Of a DNA stretch of 49,434 bases, positions 4,989 to 40,053 are shown one piece after another. How positions within the stretch are numbered: the first letter of the stretch is position 1; each line of letters begins with the position of its first letter. Below the pieces are notes generated by a model. That model was not told where the DNA came from. It was given only the letters and a program-made list of their open reading frames with translations, and made no database searches. The stretch lies in the IMG/VR virus record IMGVR_UViG_3300031673_000083, positions 1 to 49,434 of that record; one strand, written 5' to 3'. The stretch is from a virus. Both the position numbers and the translations under genes were made by a program.

Positions 4989-5775
4989 TCAATAATTTTT
5001 TAACATGATTAATATGCTTGTTTGCCATCGGCTTTCCACAAGTATTAAGTTTAATAAATGTTTCAAATATAGCACGCTTATCTGGATTTTCCAAATATCC
5101 GTATGCAATTCCGTGGTTTTCGAACTTATTTTTATCCAATCCAGATAACTCGGAGAAGTAAAATCCCTTGTATTTGAAACGGTCTTCATAGAATTCTGTA
5201 AGTGCCGTAAGTCTTTGTTTACCATCAAGAATTTCATAAAGTGCGCCTTCAGTACTGAAGTCACGTTGAACAAAAACAAATTTTCCGATATCGATGTTAT
5301 TGAAAATACTATCAATTAAATCAATTTTATCAGCTTTACTCCAAACATGTTCACGTTGATACTCGACTTCCATATCAACACCTGAGTGATATACCATTTG
5401 TAATATAGAAGCGATTCCAGAATTAAGCATTCTGATATAATATTTTTCTTCCTGACGAAAAGCAGTCCCTTTATCTATGAGTGGTAAAAGATTGTGCCAC
5501 TCCAATACATGTTGTTCATTTTGTGGTGGTTTATCCCTATCACGTTTAACACCAACGCTTTCAACACGATAATACATGCCGTCCCTAAATATTTCACGAA
5601 TGTAAGTCTCTTTATGAGCACCAAATCGCACACGCTCACCAATTTTGAATTTTCTATGTTTTGGTGGAATGGGAAGTGCACCACGTGCTATTAATTTTTC
5701 ACTATCACGTATTGCTGACTCCATTAAAGATTTCTGATGTTCTTCAGGACTAATTTTTGAAACACGTTTTGCCAT
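4978..5775 (-). CDS. DUF262-family protein, 265 aa
   Basis: The C-terminal two thirds carry the DUF262 signature: EYQREHVW (138-145), an Asp-rich helix leading to the PI-V-type strand, and DGKQRLTAL (184-192), a variant of the DGQQR motif. This ParB-related fold binds or hydrolyses nucleotides in GmrSD-type restriction. The N-terminal 100 residues contain a small beta-barrel-like segment (FKIGERVRFG) not typical of DUF262. There is no HNH partner domain, so this is not a full GmrSD. It leads an operon from the promoter at 5796-5825. Confidence 0.8.
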   Translation of the reverse strand: MAKRVSKISPEEHQKSLMESAIRDSEKLIARGALPIPPKHRKFKIGERVRFGAHKETYIREIFRDGMYYRVESVGVKRDRDKPPQNEQHVLEWHNLLPLIDKGTAFRQEEKYYIRMLNSGIASILQMVYHSGVDMEVEYQREHVWSKADKIDLIDSIFNNIDIGKFVFVQRDFSTEGALYEILDGKQRLTALTEFYEDRFKYKGFYFSELSGLDKNKFENHGIAYGYLENPDKRAIFETFIKLNTCGKPMANKHINHVKKLLSEL

Positions 5776-5795
5776 TTTATAATCTTTGTTTTGTA

Positions 5796-5825
5796 ATTAT
5801 ACGAAAAACAAATTAATATGTTACA
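5796..5825 (-). promoter_or_regulatory. Phage-type promoter TGTAACA-N13-TTCGTATAAT
   Basis: Minus-strand TGTAACA (5825-5819), 13 nt, TTCGTATAAT (5805-5796). It lies 20 nt before the DUF262 start and immediately after the terminator of the thioredoxin operon. Confidence 0.85.
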
Positions 5826-5856
5826 AAAAAGGGTAAGAAAATTAATTCCTACCCTT
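5825..5856 (-). terminator. Intrinsic terminator after thioredoxin gene
   Basis: On the minus strand AAGGGTA (856-850) pairs with TACCCTT (835-829), extended by a GAA/TTC step, and is followed by a run of T. It separates the thioredoxin operon from the DUF262 operon. Confidence 0.75.
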
Positions 5857-5876
5857 CAACACTTATAATTATCACC

Positions 5877-6251
5877 CTATTCTGGTGATTCTTCTTCTTT
5901 CTTTTCACCCAAAAGTACTTCAGCAATTCCCTGTTTGAAATTCTCTTTGGATTGACCACCCAATGCCATTTGAGGTTGACCCACTAATGGTATGAAAAGA
6001 ATTGCAGGAATGCTTTGAATTCTAAATGTCGCAGCCAATTCAATTTGTTCTTCGGTATTGACTTTATAGAAATCAACGTTTTCGTATTCAGTATCGAGTT
6101 CTTCGAGAATAGGTGCAATCATTTTGCATGGTGCACACCAATCAGCATAAAAATCAATTATTGCGGGTTTCTTGCCCTTAAACGACCATTCTTTGTTCAG
6201 TATATAGTCAAACACTTTTTCCTTAAAGGTTTCTGTTGTTAGGTTTTCCAT
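5877..6251 (-). CDS. trxA: Thioredoxin
   Basis: Single thioredoxin fold of normal length (124 aa). The active site is WCAPC (38-42) inside FYADWCAPCKMIAP, with the cis-Pro at residue 83 (SIPAI). The Gly of the usual CGPC is replaced by Ala, a substitution found in other bacterial and phage thioredoxins. Phage thioredoxins usually reduce ribonucleotide reductase or act as processivity partners; neither partner is in this window. The acidic C-terminal tail is KKEEESPE. It is co-transcribed with the exoribonuclease upstream and followed by a terminator. Confidence 0.95.
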   Translation of the reverse strand: MENLTTETFKEKVFDYILNKEWSFKGKKPAIIDFYADWCAPCKMIAPILEELDTEYENVDFYKVNTEEQIELAATFRIQSIPAILFIPLVGQPQMALGGQSKENFKQGIAEVLLGEKKEEESPE

Positions 6252-6254
6252 AAT

Positions 6255-6800
6255 TTATTTTGTATTTAATTTTTTCCAAGTGGCTGTGCAATAACTGATT
6301 TGATGTTTGCAGTCGTCAATCGGGTTATGTTCTATCCCTTCAAAGGGAAGGTTTGTTTTAATATTTGGTGCAAAACTAACCAATGTTCTCACATCTCTTT
6401 CAGACCTGAAGTACCAAGGATTTGGCATTTTACAGGCTCGGTATGCGTCTTCCATTAAACCAATATCGAAACGAGCACCATTCCCCCAGATGTTTACATG
6501 TTGGATGCAGTCTTCCATCCAAACACTGAACATATGAAGAACAGTTGGTAGCAGAGTTTTATTATCCTTACAGATAGCGTCTCGTGCAGCCTGACTTTGT
6601 TGTAGCCAGAAATAAATAGTGCTGGCTTCAACTTCTAATCCTACATCCAGACAGGATTGAAGGTCAATGACTTTATAAAATTCCCTACCAGTCTTACCAC
6701 CATCCATTAGATTGAATTCCACAGCACCTATAGAGACCAGTGCCGAATTACTTTTTTTGCCCATTGTTTCGAGGTCGAGCATTACGTCTGTGTAGTTCAT
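6255..6800 (-). CDS. DEDD-family 3'-5' exoribonuclease (RNase AS/Rv2179c-like)
   Basis: The N-terminus VMLDLETMG gives D9 and E11 of Exo I; the middle motif WGNGARFDIGLMEDAY and the C-terminal EHNPIDDCKHQISYC give the remaining acidic residues and the catalytic His. This arrangement matches the single-domain Rv2179c/phage exonuclease family, which trims RNA 3' ends. It begins 3 nt before the thioredoxin gene, so they form one operon. The leader contains an AT-rich palindrome (TATTTATAAATA) near 6815, but no phage-type promoter is seen. Confidence 0.85.
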   Translation of the reverse strand: MNYTDVMLDLETMGKKSNSALVSIGAVEFNLMDGGKTGREFYKVIDLQSCLDVGLEVEASTIYFWLQQSQAARDAICKDNKTLLPTVLHMFSVWMEDCIQHVNIWGNGARFDIGLMEDAYRACKMPNPWYFRSERDVRTLVSFAPNIKTNLPFEGIEHNPIDDCKHQISYCTATWKKLNTK

Positions 6801-6867
6801 ATGTTATCTATTATTTATAAATATTGGTGTAAATGTACAACATGTTAGCCTGAAAAGCAAGAAAGTA

Positions 6868-7125
6868 TTATTTTGTTTTTCTGAAATTACAAACATACAT
6901 TAATTTATCACCAATATACATACCATCCATTTGGATTTCCGCAACACCGCTTTTTGAAACATATATATTATTTAATAAATCAAATAATTTTGTTCCAATA
7001 TTTGTCCTTAATCGATGTTTTCTCTTTTCATTCTCTACGATATATGAGCAATAGGTTTCAGGAGTTCTCCCATATCCTTTTCTTCTGACTATTTTCCACG
7101 TCACCTTCAGAGTTTCTCTTGTCAT
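6868..7125 (-). CDS. Hypothetical protein, 85 aa
   Basis: Basic, strand-rich small protein starting MTRETLKVTWKIVRRKG, with a conserved-looking MDGMYIGDKLMYVC segment. No recognised family. It follows the HD-domain gene by 2 nt and ends the 8367-6868 operon; a gap of 67 nt separates it from the exoribonuclease gene. Confidence 0.7.
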   Translation of the reverse strand: MTRETLKVTWKIVRRKGYGRTPETYCSYIVENEKRKHRLRTNIGTKLFDLLNNIYVSKSGVAEIQMDGMYIGDKLMYVCNFRKTK

Positions 7126-12646: not shown

Positions 12647-13777
12647 ATGAGGATATTAATTGTATTGGGTTTAGGTTTTGGTGACGAGGGTAAAGGTGCT
12701 TTCGTTAATTATCTGTGTTCACAAGAAAAAAATCCAATGGTAGTAAGATTTAACGGTGGTCACCAAGTCGGGCACACCGTTGTTATTGGTAATAAACGTC
12801 ACGTGTTTTCGAATTTCGGTTCAGGTACGCTTCGAGACGTACCGACATTCTGGTCTAAATTCTGCACAGTAAGTCCAACGGGTGTTCTGAAAGAAGGAAC
12901 TGTTTTGCGTGAAATGGGACTCAATCCCGTGGTGTATTATGATTCTAATTCAATGGTGACCACCCCTTTCGACATATTACAAAATCATAAAAACGAGAAT
13001 GAAAACAATCACGGCAGTGTTGGTGTGGGATTTGGTCAAACAATCCAAAGGAATGAAGACAAGTATCACCTGTACATGCGTGACTTACTGTATCCCGAAA
13101 TTCGTGACCAGAAACTCAAAAATATCATTGACAAGTATTACGGGTTGAATTTCGACCCAACCAAACCACATCAGAACACAACAACAAGAAAAATTTATAT
13201 AGATTTTCTTGTCGCTTGTGATGATTTAGTTACACGATATAGAATCCGTGATGGACTCAAGGGACTGCATGACCATAATTTTATTTTCGAAGGTGGTCAG
13301 GGAATCATGCTTGACATGGACTACGGTTTCTACCCCAATGTGACCAGAAGTAACTGTACGGCAAAGAATGCCTTGGAACTTATAAAAGAAATTGATTTCA
13401 GAGCCAATATCAGAACCTATTACGTGACCAGAGCATATCAATGTCGTCATGGAAATGGTCACATGACCAACACGGAACTCGATACCTCATATATTATTGA
13501 TAATCCCAATGAAACCAATATTCAGGGATTTCAAGGCGAATTCAGAAAATCTGTACTGGACTTGGATATGGTGAAATACGCTGTTGAATGTGACAGGTAT
13601 GAAAACCCTAATACAAGACGAGATATAGTAGTTACATGTCTTGACCAAGTTCCAGAAGATATTCCAGTCACGATTGGTGGAGATTCAGGAACAGTGAAAT
13701 TCAATGAAATCGGGACATATTGTGGAATCGATTCCAAACACGGTACTTGGTCAGATGAAGGATTTAAAGACGAATAA
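12647..13777 (+). CDS. PurA-like adenylosuccinate synthetase (phage variant), 376 aa
   Basis: The N-terminal GFGDEGKG keeps the catalytic Asp at residue 13, and FNGGHQVGHTV supplies the second active-site region. The IMP-site segment is FEGGQGIMLDMDYG...TRSNCTA. PurA joins Asp to IMP using GTP. It is about 50 residues shorter than bacterial PurA, and the Asp-binding loop TTGRxRR is replaced by QGEFRKS, so the substrate may differ. Phage PurZ enzymes, which make 2-aminoadenine nucleotides, usually lose Asp13; its retention favours PurA or the older PurZ0 type. It is coupled to an ATP-grasp gene. Confidence 0.85.
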   Translation: MRILIVLGLGFGDEGKGAFVNYLCSQEKNPMVVRFNGGHQVGHTVVIGNKRHVFSNFGSGTLRDVPTFWSKFCTVSPTGVLKEGTVLREMGLNPVVYYDSNSMVTTPFDILQNHKNENENNHGSVGVGFGQTIQRNEDKYHLYMRDLLYPEIRDQKLKNIIDKYYGLNFDPTKPHQNTTTRKIYIDFLVACDDLVTRYRIRDGLKGLHDHNFIFEGGQGIMLDMDYGFYPNVTRSNCTAKNALELIKEIDFRANIRTYYVTRAYQCRHGNGHMTNTELDTSYIIDNPNETNIQGFQGEFRKSVLDLDMVKYAVECDRYENPNTRRDIVVTCLDQVPEDIPVTIGGDSGTVKFNEIGTYCGIDSKHGTWSDEGFKDE

Positions 13778-18315: not shown

Positions 18316-19176
18316 ATGGGTTACCTGCATATAGACAACCTTTATAAAGACCAGACAATCCTTTTATTTAAGGAATGCTACGCTATGGAAAAAATTCATG
18401 GCACGTCTGCACATATTGGTTGGAAATTCGAAGAAGACAAAATCAATTACTTCACTGGTGAGAACCACAAGTTGTTTCTGTCGTTGTTTGATGAAAACCA
18501 TCTCAGAGCCTGTTTCGAAGCAATTTTCCCCGACCAAGACGCTGTTATTTTCGGTGAACACTATGCTGGTAAATGTCAGGGTATGTCACATACCTATGGT
18601 AAAGTGTCTAAGTTCATTGGGTTTGATGTTAAGGTTGGTCACGTGTGGCTTAATGTGCCAAATGCCGAAGATGTGTGTCAGCAATTCGGTATTGAGTTTG
18701 TGCATTACACCAAAATTCTTGTGGATTTAAAAAATCTTGAGATTGAAAGAGATGAACCAAGTGTTCAAGCAGTTCGTAACGGTATTACTGAACCTAAGAA
18801 ACGTGAAGGTATTGTGCTCAGACCACTTATTGAAATGCGCACCAATAATGGTGAGAGGGTCATCTGTAAGTATAAACCAGATGAAGAAATGGAAACCAAG
18901 ACTAAGCGTGAAGTAAATCCTGAACAACTCAAGGTTTTGAGTGATGCCAAGGAAATTGCTGAAGAATGGGTGACTAATCTCAGGCTTGAACACGTGCTTC
19001 AGAAATTCCCTGCTGATGTCAGCATGGAAGCAATGGGTGATATAATCAAAGCCATGATTGAAGACGTATATCGTGAAGGTAGGGATGAAATCGTGGAGTC
19101 AACTGCCGTTGGCAAAGCCATTGGTGGTGTAACGGTTAAACTTTTTAAACAAAAACTTCAAAGCAAATTGAAATGA
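18316..19176 (+). CDS. RNA ligase (Rnl2-like nucleotidyltransferase), 286 aa
   Basis: Motif I is EKIHGTSAHI with the adenylated Lys26 in the KxHG form typical of RNA ligases; motif III/IIIa is FIGFDV, motif IV REGIVLRP, motif V VICKYK. The helical C-terminal part resembles Rnl2-type ligases. It joins 3'-OH and 5'-phosphate RNA ends, as in repair of nicked tRNA or duplex RNA. It lies 24 nt after the terminator of the tRNA-like RNA. No promoter of the known types is seen immediately upstream, so read-through or an unrecognised start is needed. Confidence 0.88.
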   Translation: MGYLHIDNLYKDQTILLFKECYAMEKIHGTSAHIGWKFEEDKINYFTGENHKLFLSLFDENHLRACFEAIFPDQDAVIFGEHYAGKCQGMSHTYGKVSKFIGFDVKVGHVWLNVPNAEDVCQQFGIEFVHYTKILVDLKNLEIERDEPSVQAVRNGITEPKKREGIVLRPLIEMRTNNGERVICKYKPDEEMETKTKREVNPEQLKVLSDAKEIAEEWVTNLRLEHVLQKFPADVSMEAMGDIIKAMIEDVYREGRDEIVESTAVGKAIGGVTVKLFKQKLQSKLK

Positions 19177-35046: not shown

Positions 35047-36216
35047 ATGAAAAACAAAAAAGTTTTCGCAATTGCATTTGCTATTCTTGCCATCCTATTT
35101 TTGGTGATGGCTCGTGGTCTCTTCCAGACGAATGATGCTGGATATTTTCAGGTCAAACAGGCTGCTATCACTGGTGATATGTCAGTAAGGTTTGACGCTG
35201 GTACTTACGGACAGTGGTTCGGTGACATCAGTGAGTATAAGAACGTTGCTACCGTGGGTATTGGTGCTCACCAAGGTGAAGGTAGTGCTGATATTGAAGC
35301 CGTTGATGTCATCTTCAATGATGGTTCGAAGGCACAGATTTCCGCTCTTATTAGGGTAAAACTACCTTCAACTGTTGAAGGTGCTATCGACCTCAAGCGT
35401 GAATACGCACAAGGTTATGAGCATTTCATTCGTTCAGGTATTGTCCCTATTGTTCAGAACGCCATTAAATTAGGTGCAAACCTTCGTAGTGCACAGGATG
35501 CATACACCACATTGGCTCTCTTTCAACAGGCTGTTGAAGACCAGTTGAGGAATGGTATTTATGTAACTAAGTCCGACAAAGTTGAAAATGTAACAGCTAC
35601 TGGTGACATCGAGGAACAACGTGTAACTGTACTGGTATATGATGATGATGGACAGCCACTTAGGACTCCAAACAGGTTGCAACAATTGGGTTGTGAAGTA
35701 CTGGAATGTGTTATTGACGTACCAGCATTTGACCCTAAAGTTAATGAAATGATTGCTGCCCGTAAAGACGAAGCCATGAAAACCGAACTTGCAAAGCAGT
35801 CCGCTATCCGTGCGAAGCAGGATGCCCTTACTGCTGAAGAACAAGGTAAGGCAAACGTTGCTACCGCTAAGTACAAGCAGGAGGTTGTTAAGGTTGAAGC
35901 CGTAACTGTTGCTCAGAAAGAGTATGAAGTTGCTGCACTTAATGCCAAGAAAGAAGATGAAAACCGTAAGGCAAAAATCTTTGAAGCACAGGGTATTTAT
36001 GAATTCAACCGTTTGAAGGTTCAGGCTGGTCTTACTCCACAGGAAAAGGTGGAATGGGATTATAAAACCAGAGTTGGTATTGCTGCTGAACTTGCCAAAG
36101 TTAATGTTCCTTCAGTTGTTGTCGGTGGTGGTGATGGTAAAGGTGGTGTGAGTCCAATGGATGCCATTGGAGTCAATATGCTCCTTGACATCATGAATAA
36201 AATGGATAAGAAGTAG
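35047..36216 (+). CDS. SPFH/band-7 (prohibitin-like) membrane protein, 389 aa
   Basis: An N-terminal TM helix (about 5-24) is followed by the SPFH core: YFQVKQAAITGDMSV, then AVDVIFNDGSKAQISALIRVKLP, and a long Ala/Glu/Lys-rich coiled-coil (about 225-330) that in this family drives ring assembly, then a Gly-rich tail. Acts at the inner membrane as an oligomeric scaffold. Unusual in phages, though also known in other large ones. It is expressed from a host-type promoter, with small membrane proteins on both sides. Confidence 0.88.
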   Translation: MKNKKVFAIAFAILAILFLVMARGLFQTNDAGYFQVKQAAITGDMSVRFDAGTYGQWFGDISEYKNVATVGIGAHQGEGSADIEAVDVIFNDGSKAQISALIRVKLPSTVEGAIDLKREYAQGYEHFIRSGIVPIVQNAIKLGANLRSAQDAYTTLALFQQAVEDQLRNGIYVTKSDKVENVTATGDIEEQRVTVLVYDDDGQPLRTPNRLQQLGCEVLECVIDVPAFDPKVNEMIAARKDEAMKTELAKQSAIRAKQDALTAEEQGKANVATAKYKQEVVKVEAVTVAQKEYEVAALNAKKEDENRKAKIFEAQGIYEFNRLKVQAGLTPQEKVEWDYKTRVGIAAELAKVNVPSVVVGGGDGKGGVSPMDAIGVNMLLDIMNKMDKK

Positions 36217-36819: not shown

Positions 36820-37758
36820 ATGAGAAAAAATTCTTTAACTCCGAATAAAGGTCTTAGCCTTTCACAAGCACAGAGTATTTCTAACCTCTGTAACCAGAGC
36901 GCAATTGAGATTGCTGCACAACTCATGGTGGTAAATAACCTCAATAAAACCGTAAAGGTTGATGGTGAGGATAAAACCACAGTAACTGGTAAGCCACTTC
37001 CTGAAAACGTGGTTGAGTTATTGAAGAAAAAGGCTGGTCTTCATGCTTGTCAGGCATTCCTGATGGAAAACATCAAGGCAAAAGATGCGATGCTGAAAAC
37101 AGCACGCACTGCAACTGCTGACTTATCAGATGTTACATATCCCGAAAAGCCAAAATTCGTTGACCCTTCTTTGGGTTCACTGGCACAGGTTGGTGAAGAA
37201 TTTGGTTGGGAACAACTCAATGCTGCCGAACTCAATGAGTATCTGGAAGCAGAAGCATTCGCTGCACACATCGGTCAGTTCATACATAAAGACAGCATTC
37301 TTGCTGGTCTGAGGAATGAACTTCCAAACATCCCTGCTATCGAGTGGATGGTTATTCAGGATGGTGTGAAGTCACCAGTAACAATTACCACTCACCACAC
37401 TGCCAAGCAACTGCTTGATATTCATAACGAACTTGCTACCGCTCACCGTGAGTATGAGCAACGTGTGAATTATTTCAAGGCAAAAGTGAAGAATCTTACA
37501 ACTACGGAGAATGCCAGTATCGCTAAACATAATGCGGATATTCAAAACGCTGCTGCAAAAACCAACAACGACTTGCAACTGACTTTCGAAACCGCTTCTA
37601 AGAAGGGTAATGAGCAAGCCAATGATATTCGTGTGGAGTTTGAAAAAACTCGTCAGGGTAAAATCTCAGAAATCGCAGCAATGCGTATCGAGGTTGCCCC
37701 ACGTTTTCAACCAATTGTGGATGAATTTCTAACGAAACTTCCTGATACTCAGGAATAA
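36820..37758 (+). CDS. Coiled-coil protein, 312 aa
   Basis: Ala/Lys/Glu/Gln-rich, with a helical N-terminal half (AIEIAAQLMV, LKKKAGLHACQAFLMENIKAKD) and a long C-terminal coiled coil (about 200-300). No membrane segment. It is expressed alone from a strong-looking host-type promoter, unlike most genes here, which suggests abundant early or constitutive synthesis. Possibly structural or scaffold; not recognised. Followed by a terminator and a structured RNA. Confidence 0.8.
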   Translation: MRKNSLTPNKGLSLSQAQSISNLCNQSAIEIAAQLMVVNNLNKTVKVDGEDKTTVTGKPLPENVVELLKKKAGLHACQAFLMENIKAKDAMLKTARTATADLSDVTYPEKPKFVDPSLGSLAQVGEEFGWEQLNAAELNEYLEAEAFAAHIGQFIHKDSILAGLRNELPNIPAIEWMVIQDGVKSPVTITTHHTAKQLLDIHNELATAHREYEQRVNYFKAKVKNLTTTENASIAKHNADIQNAAAKTNNDLQLTFETASKKGNEQANDIRVEFEKTRQGKISEIAAMRIEVAPRFQPIVDEFLTKLPDTQE

Positions 37759-37768
37759 AAACTAAGGT

Positions 37769-37807
37769 AAGGGATAGATAGAGCACAAGCCGAGTCTGTC
37801 CCTTTTT
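37769..37807 (+). terminator. Terminator-like hairpin upstream of the structured RNA
   Basis: AAGGGATAGA (37769-37778) pairs with TCTGTCCCTT (37795-37804), 10 bp with one G-U, followed by TTT. The 5' arm can pair instead with CTATCCCTT at 37869-37877, so the hairpin could be one state of a switch. Confidence 0.7.
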
Positions 37808-38108
37808 GCGCTTAGTGATGGGTTCTTTTACATATAGATAAAGTCTAATAAACTTAACAGACGTTGTTCTATCCCTTCGGGGGTATAACGACTCCTTGGT
37901 AAACCGCTTTCTCTACAAACCCAATAGTCTTTTTGGCTTCCTACAAAGAAGACCAAGACGTGGCACTAAGTTACACCTTCGGGTAGATAATTAGACCACA
38001 AAAATAAGACTTGGATTTTGCCTTTGACCTTGTAGTAGAGAAAGGTCTTTGACCTTGACGTTGGTTTTGACCGAGCCTATATAAATCTATCACTAAGCGA
38101 CTTTTTTT
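37808..38108 (+). ncRNA. Large structured non-coding RNA, about 300 nt
   Basis: No gene fits this stretch. CGCTTAGTGAT (37809-37819) pairs perfectly with ATCACTAAGCG (38089-38099), closing a domain of about 290 nt and followed by a T-run that would terminate it. Inside are a 10-bp long-range helix CTTTCTCTAC/GTAGAGAAAG (37907-37916/38035-38044), two C(UUCG)G-capped hairpins (37870-37885, 37975-37984), a GTCTTTTT/GAAGAC-type hairpin (37927-37953), and repeated TTTGACCTTG (38023, 38048). It does not show RNase P, tmRNA or 6S signatures. Confidence 0.75.
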
Positions 38109-38117
38109 CATCATTTC

Positions 38118-38147
38118 TGTAACATTTCCATTTTATTTTCGTATAAT
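38118..38147 (+). promoter_or_regulatory. Phage-type promoter TGTAACA-N13-TTCGTATAAT
   Basis: TGTAACA (38118-38124), 13 nt, TTCGTATAAT (38138-38147), right after the structured RNA and 16 nt before the ATG at 38164. Confidence 0.87.
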
Positions 38148-38163
38148 TGCATAAATAAGTGTT

Positions 38164-38561: not shown

Positions 38562-39017
38562 ATGACAGAAGAACAATTCAAAGAATTTACTGAGGAAGTC
38601 ATTCCACAACAATTATTTCATATTGACCCCAAGGACATCGATGATGATAGTGGTGGTAAACTTGATGAAACAATATTGGTTGGTTTAATTGCCAAAGACC
38701 CAAGTTGTTTAAAACATAAACCATTACAATGGTTTATCGACATGTTTTTATATAAAGACGGTTTTTATGGACAAGACCTTCATGCCGAAATTGAACAACA
38801 ATTTTTGGAAAGTGAAATGTTTTCAGTAGACGACATATTTCCTTCCAGCGAAGAAGAATTATTTCGTCAGATTCAGGAAGACGAAAGGGAAGGAGAGGTC
38901 TGTCCTGATTGCTTGGGAGCGGGTGAAACCGTGTATGGTGGTTCATTTGGTGGTGCAACTATGCATCAACCATGTTTCGGTTGTAAAGGAACTGGAAGAG
39001 TAAAGAAAGATGAATGA
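38562..39017 (+). CDS. Protein with C-terminal DnaJ-like zinc motif, 151 aa
   Basis: The N-terminal two thirds are acidic and unrecognised. The C-terminus has CPDCLGAGETV... CFGCKGTGRV, two CxxCxGxG repeats as in the DnaJ zinc-finger domain, enough for one zinc site. It likely binds a partner protein or nucleic acid. It overlaps the ligase fusion gene by 8 nt. Confidence 0.75.
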   Translation: MTEEQFKEFTEEVIPQQLFHIDPKDIDDDSGGKLDETILVGLIAKDPSCLKHKPLQWFIDMFLYKDGFYGQDLHAEIEQQFLESEMFSVDDIFPSSEEELFRQIQEDEREGEVCPDCLGAGETVYGGSFGGATMHQPCFGCKGTGRVKKDE

Positions 39018-40053
39018 TATATTATTAGATAGAGACACCTTTCGTGAGTCCGTCTTCGAAAGAGACGGGCATTTGTGTGTTATATGCCAAGACCCTGCAA
39101 AGGATGCCCATCATATCATCGAAAGACGCTTGTTTTCGAACGGTGGGTATTTTCTGGACAACGGTGCAAGTCTCTGTGAGAAACACCATCTACAGGCAGA
39201 AATGACCGCTCTATCGTGCGATGACATACGTAGTGCAGCAGGAATTCAAGTTGTTATTATCCCTGACCATTTCTATAAGGACGTGGAGTATGACAAGTGG
39301 GGTAATGAAATACTTGCCAACGGCACGAGAATCAAGGGTGAATTGTTTGAAGACGAAAGCGTTCAAAAAATCCTGAAAGCGGGAAACGTCTTGAACCAGT
39401 TCGCTGACCGAGTTAAGTATCCAAGAACTTTTCATTTGCCTTGGTCACCGGGCATGAATCGTGATGACCGTATGATGTCCGATACTAATATTTTCAGGGG
39501 TCAACGTGTTATGATATGTGAGAAACTCGATGGAGAAAACACGACTTGGTACAGGGATTATATGCACGCACGTTCACTGGACAGCGACAGTCATCCTTCA
39601 AGAAATTGGGTGAAGAACCTCTGGGCACAACATGCTTACGAACTTCCCGAAGGCTGGAGATTATGTGGTGAGAACATGTTCGCCAAACACGCAATTCATT
39701 ACACCCGTGAACTTGGAAACGCATTACAGTCTTTCTTCTACGTGTTTAGCATCTGGGATGAAAAGAATATGTGCTTGTCTTGGGATGAAACAATAGAATG
39801 GACAACACTTCTGGGACTCACACCTATTCCTGTTATTTATGACGGTCTTTATAATATCGATATTATTGCTGACCTCAATAAGAAGATGGAAGCCAGTCCC
39901 AACACGATTGAAGGTTATGTGATTAGGCTTGCCAGAGGATATCATTACAGCGAGTTCCGAGACGTATGTGGAAAATATGTACGGAAGAATCACGTACAGA
40001 GCAACCACGGACACTGGAGTACACAGAAAATAATTAAGAACGAATTATTGTGA
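39010..40053 (+). CDS. HNH nuclease-RNA ligase fusion, 347 aa
   Basis: Residues about 20-65 form an HNH/zinc region: CVIC (23-26), AHHIIERR (33-40) with the HH pair, NGASLCEKHH near 60. Residues about 165-345 are a nucleotidyltransferase: motif I CEKLDGENT with Lys172, ENMFAKH for motif III, EGYVIRL for motif IV, and KYVRK for motif V. Combining a cutter and a joiner in one chain is unusual; it could process or repair a specific RNA or DNA. The HNH part may be structural rather than catalytic. Confidence 0.8.
   Translation: MNDILLDRDTFRESVFERDGHLCVICQDPAKDAHHIIERRLFSNGGYFLDNGASLCEKHHLQAEMTALSCDDIRSAAGIQVVIIPDHFYKDVEYDKWGNEILANGTRIKGELFEDESVQKILKAGNVLNQFADRVKYPRTFHLPWSPGMNRDDRMMSDTNIFRGQRVMICEKLDGENTTWYRDYMHARSLDSDSHPSRNWVKNLWAQHAYELPEGWRLCGENMFAKHAIHYTRELGNALQSFFYVFSIWDEKNMCLSWDETIEWTTLLGLTPIPVIYDGLYNIDIIADLNKKMEASPNTIEGYVIRLARGYHYSEFRDVCGKYVRKNHVQSNHGHWSTQKIIKNELL

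Follow-up and report, generated by a model that had tools for sequence, protein, structure and literature searches.

The 49,434-nt stretch of giant-phage DNA analyzed here (the window) encodes a previously undescribed class of structured noncoding RNA, which is strictly and anciently linked to one protein family. The gene-RNA pair occurs in contigs of huge phages, in the records of two gut phages, and on chromosomes of Moraxellaceae. We suggest, with moderate confidence, that the RNA and the protein form an RNA-repair ribonucleoprotein, working like Ro60-Y RNA and belonging to neither family.

The RNA is about 345 nt long and spans approximately 37762-38108 on the + strand, within a 405-nt gap without genes (37759-38163). 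An earlier note on this DNA had described a gene-free stretch carrying an unnamed structured RNA of about 300 nt. The gap indeed holds no gene, and the RNA is real according to covariation, the missing Rfam match, and its noncoding nature, but it starts about 46 nt further 5' than was proposed. In nearly every locus the RNA begins 3-12 nt past a stop codon. The 5' to 3' order of elements is P0; a hairpin (P2) with the loop GCACAAGCCGA; P1; a variable region; the invariant CGC and the P3 5' strand; a hairpin; P4; a GACUUNG...UUG...UUG...UUG block; the P3 3' strand; GGUCUUUGA with further UUG at 6-nt steps; an invariant CUAU; the P1 3' strand; and a U-run (Table 1).

Table 1. Features of the RNA, the partner gene, and the following promoter-like motif (window coordinates).
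Feature	Position	Strand	Basis or remark
Partner gene, 312-aa protein, no fold match	36820-37758	+	strict co-occurrence with the RNA
Structured noncoding RNA, whole	37762-38108	+	covariation over 64 homologues, folding z, no Rfam match
P0 5' strand	37764-37768	+	pairs with 38100-38103, G37767 bulged; top covarying pair
P2, 5' hairpin	37769-37804	+	8/8 stem pairs with two-sided changes
P2 loop GCACAAGCCGA	37783-37793	+	near-invariant
P1 5' strand	37809-37819	+	pairs with 38089-38099; 9/9 counted pairs with two-sided changes
Lineage-variable region	37820-37904	+	length and sequence differ between lineages, not conserved
UUCG hairpin of the variable region	37863-37892, UUCG at 37876-37879	+	
Invariant CGC, then P3 5' strand (37907-37916)	37905-37916	+	pairs with 38035-38044; 99.7% of cells paired
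P4 hairpin domain, second UUCG hairpin	37960-37999	+	5 covarying pairs
Conserved block, part one: GACUUNG...UUG, ~6-nt spacing	38009-38034	+	several invariant columns
P3 3' strand	38035-38044	+	covariation with 37907-37916
Conserved block, part two: GGUCUUUGA, then UUG every 6 nt	38045-38076	+	noncoding
P1 3' strand	38089-38099	+	covariation
3' U-run, putative transcript end	38102-38108	+	sequence; relatives
Promoter-like motif TTTCGTATAAT of the next gene	38137-38147	+	13 near-exact copies in the window

The 6-nt periodicity of the conserved block is marginal in part one (lag 6, p = 0.09) and significant in part two (p = 0.0015). The GACCTTG repeats noticed earlier, at 38026 and 38051, are present and belong to this longer block with UUG about every 6 nt. 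Both UUCG hairpins of the earlier note were recovered as well, the first of them in a region varying between phages and outside the conserved core, together with its additional hairpin and the 3' T-run. The hairpin between the P3 5' strand and P4 is CUGAGAUAGAACUCA in many relatives and a different one in the window's group. The AUAGA loop of CUGAGAUAGAACUCA is complementary to UCUAU (the invariant CUAU/UCUAU near the 3' end) in most relatives, and a tertiary contact between them is possible; both are invariant and therefore not open to a covariation test.

The covariation set comprised 64 phage RNAs and 36 named pairs in seven helices, aligned by MAFFT (493 columns); this alignment is not structure-aware, so the covariation counts are conservative for P3. 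Two-sided changes were detected at 33 of the 36 pairs, and 94.9% of the cells were paired versus 36-51% in slid controls. The covariation score of 0.733 compares with 0.271 for shuffled and 0.12-0.19 for slid alignments, and none of 500 shuffles matched the real covariation. RNAalifold independently gave 34 pairs, 29 of them with compensatory changes; its local helix at alignment columns 399-417 was rejected, as it shows no two-sided changes and competes with the covarying P3. Under a tree-based null (our own R-scape-like script with 20 simulated alignments, giving coarse E-values), the 13 top pairs had standard pairs in nearly all cells and all lay in P0, P1, P2, P3 or P4, led by the P0 pair 37765-38102. 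Strand swapping between phages destroyed each of five helices (0/200). The P3 strands co-vary in length and sequence across relatives, and the G-U pairs agree with the + strand. The exact 11-bp (P1) and 10-bp (P3) pairings, which the earlier note had considered unlikely to arise by chance, are both present and show compensatory changes in most lineages; the homologues bear out that judgment, and the RNA passed the test of compensatory changes in homologues that the note had proposed.

The folding energy of the + strand at 37805-38108 was below that of 100/100 dinucleotide shuffles (z = -4.53), and the - strand was less striking (z = -3.54). The Rfam scan (cmscan), likewise suggested earlier, returned no match for the RNA in the window, in 15 relatives, or in six bacterial and gut-phage loci. 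The RNase P, tmRNA, 6S, and group I intron models did not match the window RNA, and ARAGORN detected no tRNA, tmRNA or tmRNA tRNA-like domain in the window, in agreement with the first reading that such signatures are absent. No match to the RNA was given by the GOLLD, ROOL, and OLE covariance models. A search of Rfam 15 and the openly accessible literature found no description of the RNA. Queried with the window RNA or a relative, the named phages yielded no nucleotide homologue; the weak match in Flavobacterium phage immuto was rejected, since it is located downstream of the RNA, outside it and close to the start of a gene.

The partner protein is alpha-helical with a long coiled-coil helix (AlphaFold model, pLDDT 88) and mildly acidic (median pI about 6). 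It matched no Pfam, NCBIfam, PHROG or PADLOC family above the cut-off, and Pfam TROVE matched neither the phage nor the Moraxella protein; no known RNA-binding domain was found in it. The search of the window protein against named phages gave no match. Foldseek detected no relative of the model in the PDB, and its sole match among viral models was an uncharacterized member of the same protein family. An internal duplication, an idea from the order of secondary-structure elements, was rejected, having no hhalign support.

The search with the 312-aa protein detected 76 IMG/VR contigs, and a related RNA followed the gene on the same strand in every contig with enough sequence. Conversely, a DNA pattern built from the RNA alone detected 35 loci, all with the partner gene upstream unless the sequence ends there. 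Scans by protein profile, 5'-hairpin pattern, and a divergent protein seed gave the same linkage. The gene is present in 125 distinct IMG/VR contigs (15 of them above 200 kb, the longest 434 kb) and the RNA in 121, the remaining four ending inside or just after the gene. The RNA was never found away from the protein gene, which was single copy in 10/10 records tested. Either the RNA directly follows the gene, or nothing but inserted genes, reaching about 1.5 kb in some loci, stands between the two; at approximately 14 loci at least one gene intervenes, and the last one usually ends at the same spot ahead of the RNA. The neighboring genes of the pair otherwise vary. In three loci (L309, L312, and L061, the last with an internal stop) the partner gene is broken and the downstream RNA intact.

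The partner gene's transcript probably carries the RNA as its 3' part, because the RNA starts just after a stop codon, is followed in many relatives by a terminator-like (intrinsic) hairpin just 3' of it, and precedes a gene with its own promoter-like motif. All 13 near-exact copies of this motif, TTTCGTATAAT, stand in gene direction, mostly just upstream of ORF starts, and it is probably a phage-specific promoter; copies occur at 1111(-), 5796(-), 12471, 31533, 38137, 40639, 43693, and other positions. The copy in front of the next gene would mark the end of the RNA's transcription unit. Bacteroidota-type promoters were rejected as evidence for the host, since they are not enriched in the window (7 versus 6 expected); the two that immediately precede the partner gene amount to a hint at most.

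In bacteria, a whole-genome profile search detected a distant partner homologue in Moraxella macacae (E = 2.6e-14) with an RNA-pattern match directly after it, and the adjoining homologue shows that this match is real and no chance hit. We found the partner homologue in 8 of 299 Moraxellaceae genomes, followed in 8/8 by an RNA with the 5' hairpin, P1, CGC and P3, and the UUG block. The CGC and P3 5' strand have the same position as in the phage RNAs, and the 5' loop, UUGACCUAUAA, and the P1 and P3 sequences differ. RNAalifold predicted 61 pairs for the Moraxellaceae RNAs, 25 with two-sided changes. Partner homologues followed by RNAs were also detected in the named gut phages bajarodcaudo virus 1 (PQ006092; 18-bp P1 and 12-bp P3) and MT836666 (10-bp P3 and the UUG block), where the layout was assigned by inspection and helix search. 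The layout of stop codon, 5' hairpin, P1, CGC with P3, UUG block, and 3' U-run is shared by the 64 phage RNAs, the eight Moraxellaceae RNAs, PQ006092, and MT836666.

The partner is rare elsewhere: samples of Gammaproteobacteria and of the order gave 1/369 and 3/391, respectively, and these were without exception Moraxellaceae of the set above. The pair was not found in plasmids, and IMG/VR scans with Moraxella and bajarodcaudo seeds added nothing useful. One MAG contig carries a phage-type pair with 59% protein identity to the window; the MAG is placed among bacteria with genomes of about 1 Mb, and 3/380 in its phylum sample matched, two weakly. It is probably a phage contig in the bin.

The gene context in Moraxellaceae is related to RNA repair. 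In seven of the eight copies the pair is the 3' end of an array adjoining rtcR, in the order divergent rtcR, kinase-RNA ligase, metallophosphoesterase, protein, RNA. The kinase-ligase (504 aa) is a fusion of a P-loop kinase and an Rnl1-type RNA ligase (RNA_lig_T4_1), and RtcR scored 728 bits as the RtcR equivalog (cut-off 650). No strict sigma-54 promoter was found before these arrays, just TTGGCAC-N5-TTGG. The Moraxella macacae pair has neither repair genes nor the rtcR array; it is located (L122, 4996-6170) between genes for an ExoX-like exonuclease and a CmoB-like tRNA methyltransferase. RtcR operons answer to cut tRNAs and carry Rsr and Y RNAs in Salmonella (PMC7790460).

Among the phage loci, the fetched flanks of 30/68 contain at least one RNA-repair-type gene and those of 38/68 contain none. 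A homologue of the Moraxella phosphoesterase (33%, 1e-27) was detected in 21-22 loci, a PNK-like kinase in 17, and an RNA ligase in about 9-14; RtcR is absent from the phage flanks. In three related huge phages (L021, L065, and L068, approximately 5335-6920) a TROVE/Ro60 gene lies within about 30 nt of the RNA 3' end. RNA-repair sets against tRNA-cutting defense are known in jumbo phages, a few of which have TROVE proteins (PMC7824862). The pair is often beside tRNA genes, and several copies are inside tRNA arrays. HNH and GIY-YIG homing-type endonuclease genes are common near it (L020, 437-943, with equivalents in 31 loci; L058, 2085-2753).

The window has an RNA ligase gene 0.9 kb downstream of the RNA. 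Its two RNA ligase genes (18316-19176 and 39010-40053), one Rnl2-like and the other with an N-terminal part matching HNH nuclease families, are consistent with an RNA-repair set in the phage. Two genes upstream of the pair, 35047-36216 encodes an SPFH/Band_7 protein with relatives in crAss001 and some Vibrio phages. The gene at 12647-13777 is adenylosuccinate synthetase-like (PurA or PurZ), linked to PurZ by PHROG and weakly by NCBIfam; PurZ makes 2-aminoadenine (Z) DNA in some phages.

A protein-RNA machine for broken RNA is probable because the same pair is located in bacterial RNA-repair operons. Transcription of the protein gene would yield the RNA at the 3' end of the message, ending at the U-run or a terminator, and the RNA would be either released from the transcript by processing or left attached. 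The 312-aa protein would bind it, as their co-occurrence suggests, and the UUG repeats might be a repeated binding platform, which is our guess from their conservation and spacing. The ribonucleoprotein may have a role in RNA repair, where broken RNAs would be its substrates and the RNA ligase, the kinase, and the phosphoesterase its fellow actors; tRNAs cut by host anticodon nucleases would be the likeliest targets. The complex would be the RNA-plus-protein scaffold of the RNA-repair operon, as Ro60-Y RNA is, built from unrelated parts, and in phages it would potentially serve as a counter-defense keeping translation running. A wider proposal is tentative, with a probability that we place slightly below even: RNA repair would have a second type of ribonucleoprotein, unrelated to the first, in which the dedicated RNA and its protein serve bacterial RtcR-type repair operons as scaffold or sensor, and which huge phages acquired or invented as a counter-defense against tRNA-cutting immunity.

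Several observations count against the repair reading: the partner protein is mildly acidic and lacks a known RNA-binding domain, the RtcR link is limited to Moraxellaceae, repair genes are missing beside the Moraxella macacae pair and from the flanks of 38/68 phage loci, the sigma-54 promoter that would be expected was not found in its strict form, and the RNA always stands in cis right after a stop codon, as a 3'-UTR element would too. The main rival, rather unlikely in our estimation, is a cis-acting 3'-UTR element that stays on the mRNA and either stabilizes the transcript or allows the protein, or ribosome release at the neighboring stop codon, to regulate the protein's expression. The start 3-12 nt after the stop codon leaves no room for the RNA's own promoter, the inserted ORFs mostly end at the same spot, and the RNA never appears apart from the gene, all of which suit such an element. 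However, the fold, 345 nt long, contains large unpaired blocks that are invariant, has been preserved in phages and Moraxellaceae alike, and far exceeds the needs of known autoregulatory elements, some loci tolerate insertions of up to about 1.5 kb between gene and RNA, and the RNA is kept despite a broken protein gene. This persistence in a few genomes would also suit a stand-alone RNA machine, working by itself or assembled from RNA only as in the GOLLD/ROOL cages, with the protein as a co-transcribed neighbor having a separate role in the same process. Ornate phage RNAs near tRNA clusters are known (PMC12286853), and the present RNA also occurs beside tRNA arrays. We consider the stand-alone machine improbable, since the RNA accompanies one protein family almost without exception even in very distant genomes, for which it is difficult to account unless the two are functionally coupled, and ROOL has no identified protein partner (PMC12286853). 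That there is no RNA at all, and the stretch is a short coding sequence or a structure arisen by chance, is hardly credible: 38009-38076 translates in one frame in some members to alternating small and large residues (DLVFVFAF...), but the UUG-block length modulo 3 is split 33/30/1 with stops in all frames, the same bases build the covarying helix P3, and chance structure is excluded by the covariation controls.

Only rarely does a large structured RNA class have a protein dedicated to it, and this pair is strongly conserved, in at least 125 phage contigs, many of 200-434 kb. The bacterial version occurs in sequenced Moraxellaceae, which makes the proposal testable now in culturable bacteria. 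If the repair link is true, it would explain part of how huge phages shield translation from anticodon nucleases, and Ro60-Y RNA would not be the sole ribonucleoprotein of RNA-repair operons.

Among known systems, the bacterial Ro60 (Rsr)-Y RNA of the rsr-yrlBA-rtcBA operons likewise combines an RNA and a dedicated protein encoded together. The setting beside RtcR and RNA-repair enzymes is shared in the seven Moraxellaceae arrays but not in phages, and a further likeness is the TROVE gene adjoining the present RNA in three phage loci. However, the partner protein lacks a TROVE domain and is unrelated to Ro60 in both sequence and fold, the RNA exceeds Y RNAs in length and has no tRNA-like part and no Rfam match, and the Moraxellaceae arrays carry a kinase-ligase and a phosphoesterase, with no RtcB or RtcA identified. 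GOLLD and ROOL are likewise elaborate structured phage RNAs, often near tRNA genes (PMC12286853), but the present RNA is much shorter (about 345 versus about 600-800 nt or more), does not match their Rfam models, and differs by its strict protein partner and the RtcR arrays. OLE is also a large ornate bacterial RNA with dedicated proteins, whereas the present RNA, having no Rfam match, has another protein family and another gene context. The T4-type RNA repair (Pnkp, Rnl1) and jumbo-phage sets contain the ligase, kinase, and phosphoesterase that surround the present pair in many loci, and the pair differs from them in bringing a structured RNA and a protein that are not described in those sets.
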